This document shows, in pieces, positions 2,279-22,632 of a stretch of 24,112 nt of DNA. Position 1 is the stretch's first letter, and each line of letters begins with the position of its first letter. Origin of the DNA: a virus; IMG/VR virus record IMGVR_UViG_3300033141_004173, positions 1-24,112 of that record. The stretch is one strand, 5' to 3'. Made by a program: the position numbers and the translations under genes. The notes under the pieces were generated by a model that saw only the letters and a program-made list of their open reading frames with translations, had not been told where the DNA came from and did not search any database.

Positions 2279-3262
2279 CTATTTCTTTTTTCTACGTCTT
2301 TTGGTTCTTTTTGGTATTTCAAAGACATCTTTACGTATTATAATATCTTTACAATATGTTTGTAAACTTTGTATTAAAGGTATTTGTTCTATCTCTATTA
2401 GTATACCCCCTTCTGTTGAATTAATAATAGGATAACATCTTGTCTTTGTTAGCTTTACGAATGTATTCTTATATAATTTTAATGTCTTTGTTGTCCATAT
2501 ATGCTTCCCCCCAGGGATAGATACATCTAATTCTTTTTTTACTTCTTCCTTTTTTAACCTATTAATAGCTTTTTCCCATTCAGGGGATCCTTCTGGATCT
2601 TCCAGGTGATAAATTTTTCTATCTAAAAATCCATCACAATATGCTTTATTGTCGGTAAAAGCAAAATCATATCCTAATAATATCACAGCAGATGGTCTGA
2701 ATATATCAGCAATTTGCAACAAAGTAGCTCCTATAAAAAATCGATTGAATAAAGTTCCCCATCCCTTTGTTGGTTTTGTGAGTTTTCTTAATGTTTCTTC
2801 TTTTGGTGTATTTTTTACATCAGATTGATTATAATATATTAATCTACCTTTCCATGCTTCAATATTTATTGGATTTGATGTTGTTGCACATATCAATGTA
2901 TAAGGAGAAGTATTTATACCTATCCAAAATCTTTGGATAGATTCATGTGGATCTATATTAACAACAAAATCTGGAAAAATTTCATATTCTATTAATTTGA
3001 ATAAAACAACATCTGCACATATAATAAGACATTTATCTGTATATTCTTTCAATTGCTTTATATTTTTATCTAGTGAGGGACCTGCTACTATAAGTACAAT
3101 TGGTATATTTTGATAAGGTAATGTATTAAGTAATAAAGTTAGAGGTCGTGCACGATTGCCTGACAAATAACCTCGACTTAGATTGGTATTATAATTATCT
3201 TTCCATAATTTAATTATTGGATCATTTTTCAATATCTCTTGAATGTGCTTATTTACTAACAT
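2279..3262 (-). CDS. Maf/DUF115-like (MptE-like) glycosyltransferase
   Basis: A 327-residue protein with the layout of the DUF115/MAF_flag10 family. It has a Rossmann-type start VLIVAGPSLDKN (residues 56-67), then a CADVVLF segment (82-88), FPDFVVNIDPHES (96-108), and a late GYDFAFTDNKAYCDG (197-211). Known members include Maf enzymes, which attach nonulosonic acids to flagellin Ser/Thr, and MptE-like pyrophosphokinases. The flanking motifs fit the Maf-type group better, but the length is that of the core domain only. The C terminus is a strongly basic tail (RTKRRRKKK) that could bind nucleic acid or acidic surfaces. The gene has its own good promoter at 3292-3319 and lies directly before the FN3-like virion gene, which suggests that a phage structural protein or a host surface protein is the acceptor. 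The substrate is inferred, not seen. Confidence 0.72.
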   Translation of the reverse strand: MLVNKHIQEILKNDPIIKLWKDNYNTNLSRGYLSGNRARPLTLLLNTLPYQNIPIVLIVAGPSLDKNIKQLKEYTDKCLIICADVVLFKLIEYEIFPDFVVNIDPHESIQRFWIGINTSPYTLICATTSNPINIEAWKGRLIYYNQSDVKNTPKEETLRKLTKPTKGWGTLFNRFFIGATLLQIADIFRPSAVILLGYDFAFTDNKAYCDGFLDRKIYHLEDPEGSPEWEKAINRLKKEEVKKELDVSIPGGKHIWTTKTLKLYKNTFVKLTKTRCYPIINSTEGGILIEIEQIPLIQSLQTYCKDIIIRKDVFEIPKRTKRRRKKK

Positions 3263-9383: not shown

Positions 9384-9417
9384 ATAAAACATTGTTTTAT
9401 AAGATAAAACTTGTCAA
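9384..9417 (-). promoter_or_regulatory. Weak promoter or operator region before the 82-aa gene
   Basis: A consensus -35 box TTGACA (9412-9417, minus strand) overlaps the DegT stop codon. The only -10-like match is AACAAT after 15 bases. A 7-bp inverted repeat (ATAAAAC-ATT-GTTTTAT, 9384-9400) covers the expected -10 area and might be an operator or a weak terminator for the DegT gene. Confidence 0.3.
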
Positions 9418-10562
9418 CAACTTTTTCCGATTTTTTGACAAATTTCCATAATATTTTCTATAATATAGTTAACTTCATCTTCGGGTAGTTCTGGATAAAT
9501 AGGTAAACTTATTGTAGATTCATATATAGCTTCGGACATAGGAAATTCAGCTATATTTTTTCTGTAGTATGAAAAACGATATAAAGGGGTATAGTGAACA
9601 CTAACTGCTATTTTACGTTGACGTAATAATAATATTAATTTATCCCGCCATTCAATAGAAAAGTCCTTGAAATTTGTATTCAATTTTAGGGGATATAAAT
9701 GCCATGATGATATCTTGTGCTTATCTACTGTATAAGGTGTTATATATACAGACTGATCAAAACTTTTGTTGTACATTTCTGCTATTTTTGTTCTTTTAGT
9801 ATGCATTATATCTGCTTTGCGTAACTGTACTATACCAATAGCAGCATTAATATCAGACATATTATATTTGTAACCTAAACATACTATATCATATGACCAT
9901 GATAATCCATTTTTTCTCTTGAGTATATCTTTATCTACACCGTGTAATCTCAATTTACGTATTTTCTCTGCTATTTCTATATTATTAGTTGTTACCATCC
10001 CACCTTCGCCAGTAGTTATGGTTTTGTTTGCATAAAAACTAAAACAGGTAGCATCCCCAAACGTTCCGATTAATTTTCCATTATAGTAAGAAGGCAATGC
10101 ATGTGCTGCATCTTCTATTACAAATAATTTGTGTTTATGTGCAATTTCTATGATGTTTTCAATATCACAAGGCTGGCCACTATAATGTACAGGTATAATA
10201 GCTTTCGTTTTATTGTTAATTGCTTTTTTTATATTATCTATACTGATACAATGTGTATTGTAATCTACATCAACTATTACTGGAATAGCTCCACAATATT
10301 CTACAGCTTGTGCAGTAGCAACAAATGTCATAGCAGGTACTATAACTTCATCTCCATATCCTACTCCTACTGCCTTAAGAGCACAATGCAATGCTGCTGT
10401 ACAAGAGTTAAGAGAAATTGCATAATCAGCACCTACATATCTTGCAAAATTATTTTCAAACTCTACAGCTTTCTCACCAGAAGTCAACCAACCATTTTTT
10501 AATACTTCTACTACAGCTTCGATTTCATCATTATTTATTGATAATTTATAAAAAGGTATCAT
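9414..10562 (-). CDS. DegT/DnrJ/EryC1/StrS family sugar aminotransferase
   Basis: A full-length 382-residue PLP-dependent aminotransferase of the type that adds an amino group to keto-sugars bound to a nucleotide (as ArnB, PseC and similar enzymes do). N-terminal GWLTSGEKAVEFE (24-36) and NSCTAALHCALKA (52-64) are typical. Asp151 in VIEDAAHALPS binds the PLP ring nitrogen, and Lys180 in FYANKTITTGEGG is the Schiff-base lysine. It looks intact and likely active. The precise sugar cannot be assigned. It follows a virion gene by six bases with AGGT before the start, so it is transcribed with structural genes. Together with the cupin and Maf-like genes it points to phage-directed amino-sugar glycan modification. 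Confidence 0.9.
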   Translation of the reverse strand: MIPFYKLSINNDEIEAVVEVLKNGWLTSGEKAVEFENNFARYVGADYAISLNSCTAALHCALKAVGVGYGDEVIVPAMTFVATAQAVEYCGAIPVIVDVDYNTHCISIDNIKKAINNKTKAIIPVHYSGQPCDIENIIEIAHKHKLFVIEDAAHALPSYYNGKLIGTFGDATCFSFYANKTITTGEGGMVTTNNIEIAEKIRKLRLHGVDKDILKRKNGLSWSYDIVCLGYKYNMSDINAAIGIVQLRKADIMHTKRTKIAEMYNKSFDQSVYITPYTVDKHKISSWHLYPLKLNTNFKDFSIEWRDKLILLLRQRKIAVSVHYTPLYRFSYYRKNIAEFPMSEAIYESTISLPIYPELPEDEVNYIIENIMEICQKIGKSC

Positions 10563-12506: not shown

Positions 12507-13010
12507 ATGCTAGCTTGCTCAAAATCCACCCAGGAAATATTAGCATTGATCTTGGCATTAAACAATAAAATTAAAGGATGGCCAAGATTCCATAAAATAA
12601 CTTATATTTTGAAAAATATGGGAATAAACTTCAAGTATAAATTCAGTTATCATTACTTTGGACCATATTCTTCTGATTTACAGCTTGAACTCGAAGAGTT
12701 GCTTGATTGTAATATAGTAGTAAAAGAAAAAATCTCTCATTCTATATTATATCGAGTATCTGATCAATATAAAGCAATTATTAATACTGATTTGTTCAAA
12801 GATAAAATAATATTACTTAATTATTTAAATTCACAAGATTTATCGATATTAGAACTAATAGCAACAATCTATTATTTAATAAACACAGGTATCAAAAACG
12901 AAAAAGTCTTGCATAGTAAATTATGCATATTAAGACCGGATCTACATCAATATGAAATAAACAAAGCATTGAGATTGAAAACACACTTATCAAAAAATTA
13001 TCATCTTTAA
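12507..13010 (+). CDS. YwgA/Panacea (DUF4065)-like protein, only plus-strand gene
   Basis: A 167-residue protein. Residues 28-60 contain RFHKITYILKNMGINFKY followed by YHYFGPYSSDLQ, the helix-turn plus YGPYS signature typical of YwgA-family and related Panacea/SocA-like proteins, which occur as antitoxins or phage-associated proteins. A second domain from about residue 100 (LNYLNSQDLSILELIATIYYL) is helical and also typical of the YwgA end. No toxin gene was recognised next to it. Its 3' end overlaps that of the convergent endonuclease gene by 21 bases, and it is the only gene on this strand, consistent with arrival as a separate cassette. A role in phage defence or counter-defence is conceivable but not shown. 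Confidence 0.55.
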   Translation: MLACSKSTQEILALILALNNKIKGWPRFHKITYILKNMGINFKYKFSYHYFGPYSSDLQLELEELLDCNIVVKEKISHSILYRVSDQYKAIINTDLFKDKIILLNYLNSQDLSILELIATIYYLINTGIKNEKVLHSKLCILRPDLHQYEINKALRLKTHLSKNYHL

Positions 13011-14669
13011 ATTTCCTGCATCAAAAATTCTCAGGTAATCATTATTCAGCATATTTTGATATTCTGACAAAGAACTATCAAATGTCTCTAGTAGATTTTT
13101 TAATTTGTGTTTCTGAAATCTAATTCTGTTGTAAAGAATGTCTGGATGTTTTTTTGAAAAATAATAGTAGTTGGGACTTGTAATGTGTTCTTTTTTAAAT
13201 CCACTCTGGTACAAACCATGTCCATTGAAATAGCGAAGATCTACAAAACTTACTAATTGAGTAGGTTGTGTTTGTTTCAAAAAGTGCTTAATTAGTCTTT
13301 GTAACCCCCCTACAACTGCGTAATTAATCTTAGTACAGAAACGAACCAATTCAAATCCACCAGTTGAAAACCTGTTTTTAGAAAATGCAGCAAGGCAGAC
13401 TAAATTTTTTTCAAAATACAAACCTAGTTTTACAGATGCTGGAGCCTTTCCTTGCAAGTGATTTTCCTCTAGAAATTTTAAATATTCTATATTATCAACA
13501 TTTTTTATTAAACATTTTCTGGCATAAATCACAGAACTTAAACCAAGATAGTTTTTTATTATAGACTTTACGATGTCTTTTTTAGATAACCACTCAGTTT
13601 CGAATATCTGAATCAACTGTATATTTCGCTCTGTAAAAAATAGATATTTTTTCTGATGATAAAATTTATCTCTGTAAAAATCACAATGCCAATAAATTCC
13701 ACAAAATTCAATTCCTAAATTATGATCTTGAATATAAACATCAATCTCATATTTATATTTGCCTTGATCATAAAACTTTTTGTTTAAATCTATTTTGTCT
13801 ATTCCAATTGAATTTAACCAATCAGCTATTTCACTCTCAAAATAGGATCTAGATCTTTTACAGTTGCAATAAATATTATGCGGATTTGTCTCTTCAGAAT
13901 AGAAAATTGTTGTACATGATTGACATTTAAATCGATCGTAATTATTTGTGTTTTGGATATAATCATCTTTTGTAAAATCAGGAATAATGTCCTTCTTTTT
14001 TAACACCTTCAAAAAATCTTTCCAGTATTTCTTCCTGTGACTCATTCTGGTTTTTTCTTTAATTGTAACAGATTGTTGAGGATAAGATGTACCGTGTCTC
14101 TCTTTATTCGTAACAACTGCTTTTCGTTTAATTTCTTCGTTTTGAAAAGCATAGGGATGTCCATATTTCTGAATATTTGTTGATTTGATTTTGTTTTGTA
14201 TCTCTGGTGATTTAAACACATTATCCACGCCATATTTTTCTTTTATGGTTTGAATAGCCTTATTTCTGATAGAAGGAACCTTCAGTACATTATCTACACC
14301 ATAATTTTTTAAACAACTTTCTCTTTGCTTACTTCGTACTTGCTGAGAACAAGCTGGTGCATTACCACCATAGCGTAGTTGATTAGTTTTCTTTCGTTCT
14401 TCAATTACATTTTTATTTCTGGAAGGATTATCAGTTCCATACTTAGTCAAATTCGTAATCTTTGTCTTTTCTTTAATTTCTTCCAACTTTGCAATATTTG
14501 TTACTCCGTATTTTTTTAGAACCGTTTTTTGCCTATTATTGGCTTTTTGCTTTTGATAAATTTCCCAGTGTTTTTCACAGACTGGATAATAAAATAATTT
14601 ATCCTTACGTCTTCCTTCCTTTAGATTCTCAGTTGAGCCGCAGTATTTGCACTTTTTTATCTTTGGCAT
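12990..14669 (-). CDS. Hef/VSR-type homing endonuclease with KYG repeats and zinc fingers
   Basis: A 559-residue mobile endonuclease. Order: an N-terminal zinc finger (CKYC at 7-10 with Cys31/His34); about seven imperfect KYG repeats (52-216, such as KYGVDNVFKSPEIQNK), which usually bind DNA; a second zinc ribbon (CQSC 249-252, CNC 268-270); and a VSR-like PD-(D/E)xK nuclease (276-370, with YEIDVYI at 307-313 and GIEFCGIYWHCD at 319-330). A C-terminal domain (about 385-545) has VVGGLQRLIKHFL and PNYYYFSKK, as in phage Hef-like enzymes. Free-standing enzymes of this group spread by cutting intron-less or insertion-less relatives. The frame is intact. It lies in the gap after the capsid terminator and interrupts an otherwise continuous head operon. 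No strong ribosome binding site is seen. Confidence 0.85.
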   Translation of the reverse strand: MPKIKKCKYCGSTENLKEGRRKDKLFYYPVCEKHWEIYQKQKANNRQKTVLKKYGVTNIAKLEEIKEKTKITNLTKYGTDNPSRNKNVIEERKKTNQLRYGGNAPACSQQVRSKQRESCLKNYGVDNVLKVPSIRNKAIQTIKEKYGVDNVFKSPEIQNKIKSTNIQKYGHPYAFQNEEIKRKAVVTNKERHGTSYPQQSVTIKEKTRMSHRKKYWKDFLKVLKKKDIIPDFTKDDYIQNTNNYDRFKCQSCTTIFYSEETNPHNIYCNCKRSRSYFESEIADWLNSIGIDKIDLNKKFYDQGKYKYEIDVYIQDHNLGIEFCGIYWHCDFYRDKFYHQKKYLFFTERNIQLIQIFETEWLSKKDIVKSIIKNYLGLSSVIYARKCLIKNVDNIEYLKFLEENHLQGKAPASVKLGLYFEKNLVCLAAFSKNRFSTGGFELVRFCTKINYAVVGGLQRLIKHFLKQTQPTQLVSFVDLRYFNGHGLYQSGFKKEHITSPNYYYFSKKHPDILYNRIRFQKHKLKNLLETFDSSLSEYQNMLNNDYLRIFDAGNLKMIIF

Positions 14670-20262: not shown

Positions 20263-22632
20263 TTATTTAAACTTTGTAAAATTAGGAGTTACATTAGATT
20301 CTACTATTATAGCTGACTTTCCAAAAACCGATCCTCCTCGTTTAGCAGGCCCAAAAACACCATAATGTGGATATAATTCATCCATCATATTTAAGGATCC
20401 TGCCGAATAATTTGGTGTTAATGATCTAGCTGTAGAAAACTTCTGATTTATAGGTAACATAAAATTGCCGTGTATTGAATCTCGAATACTATCTATGTAT
20501 ACACACCATACTACTCTAACTACAGCATCAGCAAGATCCTTACTATTATGTACAAATAAACCATTAGCTAATGCAAAGTTTTCAAAAACAGGTACAGTAA
20601 TATCAAATACATCTAATTTACCATTTTTCTTTTGTATAGATTTAATCTGTATATGTTTCTTATCATCATATTGCATTAATTTATCAGTTATACGCAATTC
20701 TGCGGCTTCTTTGTAGGTATTATTTGATAATAGCCATTTATGATCTAATGTACATCGTATAATAGATTTATCGGAGAAAATTATCTCTATATATTCATTT
20801 ACAGTTTTTGTTTTATGCGCATTGTAAGCTAATACAGGAATAGTATCATATTTACTATGAGCAATTACTTTGAAGAAGTTATTTTTTCCTTTTTTTGCCA
20901 AATCTTGTATTTCTGCTGTTGTTCCATCTGCCATTAGTATCTTAGTGGATCCTGCCAAGCAACCTTCTGGTGGATGATCTACCTTTTTACCTTTTATATC
21001 ATTGAGCTGACGTAATTCAGATAATAAGAGATCATTATAAGGTAATTCTACCATATTACTATATACCAAAAGTTTCATGGTCTCATACATTTTAATATCC
21101 GCTGCTATTTTTATAGTATAAACTCCTTCTGAAAACAATCGTTCAATACTTTCTGTAGAATGCCAACTATCATATGCAACCTTCGCAATATAAAAGAATG
21201 TATTAAGTTTTCGTATAACTTCTTCAACATTCTGAAAAGACACAGTTATTCTGTTTTCTTTATTAGGCACCCATGCTTCAACAAAATCAATAATTATTTT
21301 ATGTCTCATTTCTCTATTAATATTCCCATTACTATCTGGAATTTCAACCATGACTTCAGAAGCATGGCCCATTGCTACCGTAAAACTATCTTTCACAGCA
21401 CCTTGATCACAACATATGAAATATTTCTGGACTTTATTATGGGCAAGTACAGTTACATCCTTTCCAATATATTTACGTGTTTCATGTCCTACTGTAAACT
21501 CTATAAGTTTATCTTTAAATACCACAATAGGCTCCTTTTTACTATTGACACTATTATCAATACGTTCTGGTAAGTCAAAAAAAGGTCTAATGGCTGATGG
21601 TGGTATTGCCATATAGTCTCTCATATAGGTAGCATATCCTCTATCTTTCTCAACTTCAAAGCTATCTTTAGTAAAACCTCTTGGATTATCCTCTGTCTTA
21701 GGATTAGCTTCATGTGTAGCATAATGATATCCTATCATATTTGAAACTCGTTTAGGATAGCGTAATCGTAATGCTTCTATTGTGCTTAAACCACTACCTC
21801 CTCGAATCTTAGAACACATATATAATAATTGCATTCCAAAATCATTTTCGTACATAGGCGATGTTATCGTTAAAACCTTACTAAATCCTTTTAGTGTCTT
21901 TGCGGCTCTGGATGCTGTAAAATAAACAGCCTGTGCTGTTTGCCTTTCTGTTTTTGACTGTATATCCTTCTCACTAGTATTAAATCTAGACATTTCATCA
22001 AAACATACAAAAAAAGCAGTTAAGCCAGCAATGGATGAACTATTACTGTGCAAACTTAATACTTCTAGATTTTTCTCTAGAAAAGTCACAGATTGTACAT
22101 AATGTTTAAATAGCGTTTCTTTTCCTTCAGAAACTTCTCTTTCTTTGAGATATCCTATATATTTTCTCCACCAAGGTGTAGTTGTTATAATTGTTACAAA
22201 GCTAGCATAAGCAGTCTTTTGACTCTGTTTCTCTGTAGTAGCTATATATTCTGCTGACAACATTTGTCCTGGTAATTGATCTAGCTCCAATCCAGGATCA
22301 TCCATGGCTAATAGTTTATGTAATAGAAAGGATCCAATCATACCACCTAGTACTGATTTACCAGAACGCATACCTGCTACAACTACAGCCTCATCATATA
22401 TGGGTGTTTGAGTCTCTGAATCTACAGAGAATAAATCTTCTATTATAATTCGTTGTACTTTACGTAATTTATAACCTAAATAAGATTCTATATATTCAAA
22501 TGGATCATCTGTAAATTCCACTGGACACTTTATAACTTTTTTGAAACTAAAAGGCGCAATTATATCTTTATTATCATCAGGCACATAGTTTTTATCTAAA
22601 ATAAGTTCACTAAGGCTCACAATAATCACCAT
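20263..22632 (-). CDS. terL: Terminase large subunit interrupted by a mini-intein
   Basis: A 789-residue precursor of the ATP-driven packaging motor. The ATPase has Walker A GMRSGKS (87-93) and Walker B FFVCFDE (207-213). The C-terminal RNase H-like nuclease has Asp409 in FICCDQGAVKDS, Asp488 in VAYDSWHS and Asp702 in SKDLADAV, the three expected metal-binding acids. Between HPPEG (553-557) and SKDLADA (697-703) sits a 139-residue intein. Removing it joins HPPEG to SKDLADA, the conserved terminase site, and gives a 650-residue mature protein of normal size. Translation may start at the ATG at 22632 or at GTG 22620, where GGTGAT offers a better ribosome site. It lies five bases after the exported protein gene. 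No small terminase was recognised in the window. Confidence 0.92.
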   Translation of the reverse strand: MVIIVSLSELILDKNYVPDDNKDIIAPFSFKKVIKCPVEFTDDPFEYIESYLGYKLRKVQRIIIEDLFSVDSETQTPIYDEAVVVAGMRSGKSVLGGMIGSFLLHKLLAMDDPGLELDQLPGQMLSAEYIATTEKQSQKTAYASFVTIITTTPWWRKYIGYLKEREVSEGKETLFKHYVQSVTFLEKNLEVLSLHSNSSSIAGLTAFFVCFDEMSRFNTSEKDIQSKTERQTAQAVYFTASRAAKTLKGFSKVLTITSPMYENDFGMQLLYMCSKIRGGSGLSTIEALRLRYPKRVSNMIGYHYATHEANPKTEDNPRGFTKDSFEVEKDRGYATYMRDYMAIPPSAIRPFFDLPERIDNSVNSKKEPIVVFKDKLIEFTVGHETRKYIGKDVTVLAHNKVQKYFICCDQGAVKDSFTVAMGHASEVMVEIPDSNGNINREMRHKIIIDFVEAWVPNKENRITVSFQNVEEVIRKLNTFFYIAKVAYDSWHSTESIERLFSEGVYTIKIAADIKMYETMKLLVYSNMVELPYNDLLLSELRQLNDIKGKKVDHPPEGCLAGSTKILMADGTTAEIQDLAKKGKNNFFKVIAHSKYDTIPVLAYNAHKTKTVNEYIEIIFSDKSIIRCTLDHKWLLSNNTYKEAAELRITDKLMQYDDKKHIQIKSIQKKNGKLDVFDITVPVFENFALANGLFVHNSKDLADAVVRVVWCVYIDSIRDSIHGNFMLPINQKFSTARSLTPNYSAGSLNMMDELYPHYGVFGPAKRGGSVFGKSAIIVESNVTPNFTKFK
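20545..20961 (-). other. Mini-intein in terL (139 aa, no endonuclease)
   Basis: This in-frame segment encodes TerL residues 558-696. It begins CLAGSTKILMADG (block A, nucleophile Cys1). It has the block B motif TLDH (intein residues 71-74) and a block F/G end DVFDITVPVFENFALANG and LFVHN. The final Asn and the next extein residue Ser697 are the usual splicing residues, with a penultimate His. At 139 residues it is close to the minimum for a Hedgehog/intein fold and has no LAGLIDADG or HNH domain. It should therefore splice but not home by itself. Confidence 0.93.

Follow-up and report, generated by a model that had tools for sequence, protein, structure and literature searches.

In mycobacteriophages, all seven known intein insertion points in the large terminase subunit (TerL) fall in the ATPase domain (Kelley et al. 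2016, PMC5050341); these inteins occupy functional motifs of the enzyme, several of them contain endonucleases, and their splicing was shown in reporter constructs (PMC5050341). Two other phage terminase inteins, AceL-TerL and GOS-TerL, are split, with an N-terminal fragment (IntN) of 25-37 aa and a Cys at position +1 (review PMC11766414). We analysed a 24,112-nt stretch of DNA from an uncultured phage (IMG/VR record IMGVR_UViG_3300033141_004173, positions 1 to 24,112; hereafter, the window), in which TerL is interrupted by a 139-aa insert. Like the mycobacteriophage inteins, this insert lies in a functional motif of the large terminase, but in motif III of the nuclease rather than in the ATPase domain; unlike AceL-TerL and GOS-TerL, it is contained in one continuous ORF and is followed by Ser+1. 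We consider it highly probable that the insert is a class 1 mini-intein that once carried an HNH endonuclease, lost it, and was kept because an essential protein must splice.

TerL and the intein in its nuclease motif

The TerL gene of the window is a single 789-aa frame without stops that matches the terminase large subunit families phrog_17415 and phrog_9 in a profile search; the halves of the intein are not on separate genes in the window, as they would be in a split intein. A sequence search of the PDB with the TerL profile found no terminase, whereas structure comparison did: outside the intein, the AF2 model of the precursor matches the P74-26 ATPase domain, HK97 TerL and T4 gp17. The protein combines a Walker A ATPase motif with an RNase H-like nuclease that has three acids (D409, D488 and, after splicing, D560). 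The features of the enzyme, all on the minus strand, are:

20263..22632 (-): TerL precursor, 789-aa ORF with ATPase domain, nuclease domain and one intein; 650 aa once spliced
22354..22374 (-): Walker A, GMRSGKS, uninterrupted in the window; relatives L003, L004 and L005 have a second intein here, between R and S
21406..21408 (-): Asp409, first catalytic acid of the nuclease, nearly invariant in 19 TerLs; aligns with T4 D401
21169..21171 (-): Asp488, probable second catalytic acid, nearly invariant in 19 TerLs
20536..20538 (-): Asp699 (Asp560 after splicing), third catalytic acid, invariant in 19 TerLs

The nuclease triad of T4 gp17 consists of D401, E458 and D542 (PMC3012670). Judging by order alone, Asp488 is probably equivalent to E458. 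For the third acid, D560-L-A-D-A of the window's extein fits D542-L-V-M-S of gp17, and the structural alignment to gp17 (3cpe) stops at residue 718 of the model and 561 of gp17, so that D699 falls on D542 if the terminal helix is ungapped in this alignment. When extein and gp17 were aligned with MAFFT, D401 was in the right place but the end of gp17 was not; the motif and the points at which the structural alignment ends are therefore the basis for equating D699 with D542. The intein is located in nuclease motif III, two residues before the third catalytic Asp (D699 comes two residues after the border at Ser697), in agreement with the original prediction that it adjoins this residue. It is reasonable to expect that unspliced TerL would be unable to cut DNA.

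We denote the nuclease insertion point site B (G^C...HN^SKDxADA) and the Walker A insertion point site A (GMR^...^SGKS). The intein at site B has the following features:

20545..20961 (-): mini-intein, 139 aa, Cys1 to Asn139, with matches to PF14890, TIGR01445 and TIGR01443 and a Hint fold; absent from relatives L098 and L005
20959..20961 (-): Cys1, the N-terminal nucleophile, invariant in the 25 complete site-B inteins aligned (25/25)
20740..20751 (-): block B, T71-L-D-H74 (TxxH); C70, T71 and H74 invariant in 25/25
20545..20550 (-): His138-Asn139, block G, the C-terminal cleavage residues, invariant in 25/25
20542..20544 (-): Ser+1 (precursor S697), first residue of the C-extein, at which the TIGR01443 match ends; present as +1 at all 46 intein loci

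The insert comprises precursor residues 558-696 of 789, flanked by HPPEG on the N-terminal side and SKDLADA on the C-terminal side, and its excision leaves 650 aa. Pfam Intein_splicing (PF14890) scored 42.2 bits on the precursor and 46.9 bits on the insert alone (cut-off 35.8), and the borders were matched exactly by TIGR01445 (intein_Nterm, 558-632) and TIGR01443 (intein_Cterm, 674-697). The AF2 model of the insert alone is a confident Hint fold (mean pLDDT 97.5), and the intein region of the precursor model superimposes on the Npu DnaE intein with Z 19.5 and 2.1 A rmsd over 138 residues. The domain search and the alignment with intein-free TerLs that had been proposed along with the original prediction thus matched both intein and terminase, and found the insert missing in L098 and L005; the identification as a mini-intein, with its exact coordinates (20545-20961), is upheld by the Pfam and NCBIfam profiles and by the Hint-fold model.

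All the expected splicing residues (Cys1, TxxH, His-Asn and Ser+1) are present, as had been claimed, and they are those of a class 1 intein: Cys1 directly follows the N-extein, block B reads TxxH, and the C-terminal end, VFDITV...GLFVHN^S, is matched by TIGR01443. Likewise, profile searches found no HNH_3 or LAGLIDADG match in the 139 aa, which agrees with the claim that no homing endonuclease domain is left. Autocatalytic splicing is predicted from homology and from these intact residues. Given that splicing of the window's TerL is a prediction from sequence, the insert could instead be a dead, non-splicing Hint domain, similar to the bacterial intein-like ones, that stays in the mature terminase. 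This is extremely unlikely: the class 1 residues are all intact and show no variation, the +1 Ser is a conserved extein residue, and the nuclease motif of an essential enzyme would stay broken. If the insert is, as we favour, an active intein, the 789-aa TerL would be translated whole and then spliced by the class 1 route, in which an acyl shift at Cys1 would be followed by transfer to Ser+1 and cyclisation of Asn139, joining HPPEG to SKDLADA in a normal 650-aa terminase.

One further residue of the intein is invariant. Cys70 (20752-20754), immediately before the block B Thr, is found in 25/25 site-B inteins, and Npu DnaE has Ala in its place; Cys70 is a possible redox contact of Cys1.

Empty, mini, endonuclease-bearing and split forms of the site

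Relatives of the window's TerL were collected from IMG/VR, two by a search with the precursor and one more by extein alignment; L098 came from a scan for empty sites and L046 from a scan for occupied ones. The states of the two sites are:

Window: site A empty; site B mini-intein, 139 aa
L003: site A 354 aa with LAGLIDADG; site B mini-intein, 142 aa
L004 (121-kb contig): site A 356 aa with LAGLIDADG; site B 363 aa with HNH_3
L005: site A short intein, ~150 aa; site B empty
L098: sites A and B both empty, site B reading DHPISG-SKDRADA
L046: site B 430 aa, HNH class

The nuclease-domain tree places all six in a single clade with full support, and empty, HNH and mini forms all occur within the window's clade in the extein tree. 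Because its close homologues L098 and L005 are intein-free at the site, the sequence in the window is a precise in-frame insertion; the ordinary lineage-specific domain that would have refuted the original prediction is ruled out. Intein-free TerLs of isolates also align from exactly S+1 onward on the C-terminal side of the site. The window's intein is 38-40% identical to the inteins of TerLs that are themselves 57-68% identical to the window's TerL, and in the intein tree it pairs only tentatively, on long branches, with the intein of L047. This divergence could reflect either relaxed constraint after the loss of homing or a separate arrival. Intein-splicing matches were also found in three other long ORFs of the L004 contig (G002:C1 18429-19310, 46732-47880 and 50883-51575), and the phage group of L004 seems rich in inteins.

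A DNA pattern scan of IMG/VR for H-N-[S/T/C]-K-D-x-A-D-A returned 47 loci, 46 of which are inteins at exactly site B of TerL, in very different TerLs; the pattern is built on site B itself, which makes these counts uninformative beyond that context, and most IMG/VR contigs are incomplete. At the 46 loci, the C-terminus of the intein is of the type NFALxxGxFVHN, and, in ORFs that also contain the N-terminus, a DHPxxG-like motif precedes it. HNH_3 is present in 18 of the 25 distinct complete inteins, and 6 of the 25 are only 139-167 aa long; the endonuclease-free form, which the original prediction had singled out for special notice, is accordingly not peculiar. Remnants of the endonuclease insertion (deletion scars) are retained in the aligned mini-inteins of L024, L029 and L042. 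At L038, a second intein N-terminus was detected with an HMM. The uninterrupted site-B motif is commoner in IMG/VR than the occupied one, with at least 120 loci.

Mapped on the extein tree, parts of which rest on long branches, the site would have switched between empty and occupied at least 17 times; well-supported branches force 11 of these changes, and the six mini forms need six. The identities of inteins and of exteins are uncorrelated (Spearman rho 0.08; 404 of 2000 permutations as high). The relationships of inteins and exteins disagree, and horizontal spread is therefore indicated. Such sequence comparisons give the picture of a mobile element that would move between phages and repeatedly lose its endonuclease.

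Split site-B inteins were found at six loci (L023, L026, L032, L045, L048 and L055), where the N-terminal part of TerL with an IntN of ~95 aa is followed by a gap and then by a short ORF that starts with a C-terminal fragment (IntC) of ~36 aa joined to SKDxADA. At 4 of the 6 loci, the gap contains an HNH_3-matching gene; the match at L026 is below the Pfam cut-off. The splicing domains of the split loci group together in the intein tree with modest support (81/79), and their TerLs are scattered. An isolate, Streptococcus phage vB_SagM-GXN1, also has a split intein at site B; its IntN is part of a fusion with a nuclease-like region, and the following ORF holds the IntC. The GXN1 TerL is unannotated and in pieces (L191:1078-4039, PQ819873.1), and the IntC of that following ORF is joined to SKDISDS. 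The piece bearing the site-B IntN opens with the IntC of a different split intein, one located at a site in the ATPase domain. Elsewhere in GXN1 (L192:3-4859, PQ819873.1), an unannotated DNA-polymerase-like ORF of 1618 aa contains an HNH-like intein that ends in VVHQ^S, with Gln replacing the usual Asn.

Persistence of the mini-intein and the free-standing homing endonuclease

Under the reading that we prefer, the ancestral intein family would home into the most conserved nuclease motif of TerL, normally with an HNH endonuclease for mobility. In the window's phage lineage, the endonuclease would have been deleted while the splicing domain stayed, because TerL is essential and would not function properly unspliced, and because DNA is rarely deleted exactly. 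From this we infer an HNH domain in the window's own ancestor; the intein may have descended from the HNH-bearing intein in its clade, or it may have been acquired as a copy already free of HNH.

The position of the intein also lends itself to a regulatory reading, in which slow or conditional splicing would delay the headful nuclease until packaging and so protect replicating phage DNA. The insertion two residues before a catalytic Asp, the survival of mini forms without mobility in several lineages, and the invariant Cys70 beside block B, which could in principle make splicing redox-sensitive, all fit such a gate, and regulatory roles for TerL inteins in general have been suggested (Kelley 2016, PMC5050341). 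However, the close relatives L098 and L005 manage without an intein. The site also switches between HNH, mini, split and empty states, which is the pattern expected if a selfish element exploits a conserved target, and the TerL inteins tested by Kelley spliced efficiently (PMC5050341). We therefore regard the gating of packaging, which the original prediction had raised, as improbable. There is similarly little chance that motif III is a general intein hot spot at which endonuclease-free copies are retained as a post-translational safety catch on DNA cutting until splicing. The mini-intein looks like a common selfish element that has come to be without a mobility gene; its role as a switch is unproven.

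The window also encodes a free-standing homing enzyme, as the original prediction had noted:

12990..14669 (-): free-standing homing endonuclease with DUF7487 repeats, 559 aa; phrog_3339 (E 1e-113), PF24308
14800..15957 (-): major capsid protein, phrog_2522

This enzyme could be the cutter with which a mini-intein that still homes is mobilised in trans. Both elements occur in one phage, four of the six split relatives have a free-standing HNH gene between their halves, and in GXN1 the nuclease joined to the split site-B intein weakly resembles the enzyme (BLASTP E 0.011). The endonuclease gene, however, is downstream of the capsid gene and 5.9 kb from the intein, and the L004 contig has a 46% homologue in the same position, immediately downstream of the major capsid gene; the intein of L004 has its own HNH. 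This shared neighbour points to a target in the capsid region, and the simplest guess is that the enzyme cuts near the capsid gene. No copy was found in the 11.5-kb contig fragment of L003, which has the mini form, nor in ten further records, mostly fragments; the family is a large one, with phrog_3339 matches in 417 INPHARED records. The tie between the two elements that had been suggested is weakened by these findings: as L004 pairs the same capsid-side homologue with an HNH intein, a special partnership with the mini-intein is unlikely, the free-standing enzyme is probably not part of the intein system, and we assign only a small probability to mobility in trans.

The end of the endonuclease gene is overlapped by one of the few plus-strand genes of the window (12507-13010, +), which encodes a protein of 167 aa that weakly matches part of the DarG antitoxin. 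Elsewhere in the window, a PseC-like sugar aminotransferase (9414-10562) and an MptE-like protein (2279-3262) are encoded, suggesting genes for nonulosonic-acid-type glycans in this phage.

Comparison with known systems

The inteins closest to that of the window are the other site-B inteins of IMG/VR (L004/L022, L046, L020, L025, L027 and others), which share its insertion point and Hint blocks; most of them are 205-430 aa long with HNH_3, whereas the window's intein has none. The Npu DnaE and Ssp DnaB inteins, whose structures have been solved, belong to other host proteins and share the Hint fold (Z about 19 across 136-138 residues); Npu DnaE occurs in nature as a split intein. No description of site B was found in the part of the literature on split inteins and phage homing genes that was covered, and a prior description is possible. 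Given that an interrupted TerL can be missed or truncated, annotators should be warned. The site-B series is a compact natural set for studying intein spread, the loss of mobility and splitting, and with an isolate, GXN1, that has the same site, splicing in an actual infection becomes testable.

Among crAss-like phages, inteins in TerL have also been described (Nat Commun 2021, PMC7886860), and that of cr118_1 is likewise in the nuclease domain. Unlike the window's, it is of LAGLIDADG type by sequence, interrupts nuclease motif I (YIAG^C...HN^CDPYDHD) and has Cys+1; in the cr118_1 TerL (L010:2019-5189, MT774379.1), it lies just before the first nuclease Asp. The TerL of ctRVW222 (L007:1555-3426, MW202478.1), annotated as a plain large terminase, contains a mini-intein of ~130 aa in nuclease motif III, with an insertion point that differs from site B, being about three residues further on (NDH^C...VHN^CMDAMRY). 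Taken together, these comparisons indicate that inteins in TerL are already known and that insertions in the nuclease domain exist elsewhere, in motif I (cr118_1) and motif III (ctRVW222), and that site B is one exact position in the nuclease active centre that, in many distant TerLs, is HNH-bearing, endonuclease-free, split or empty.
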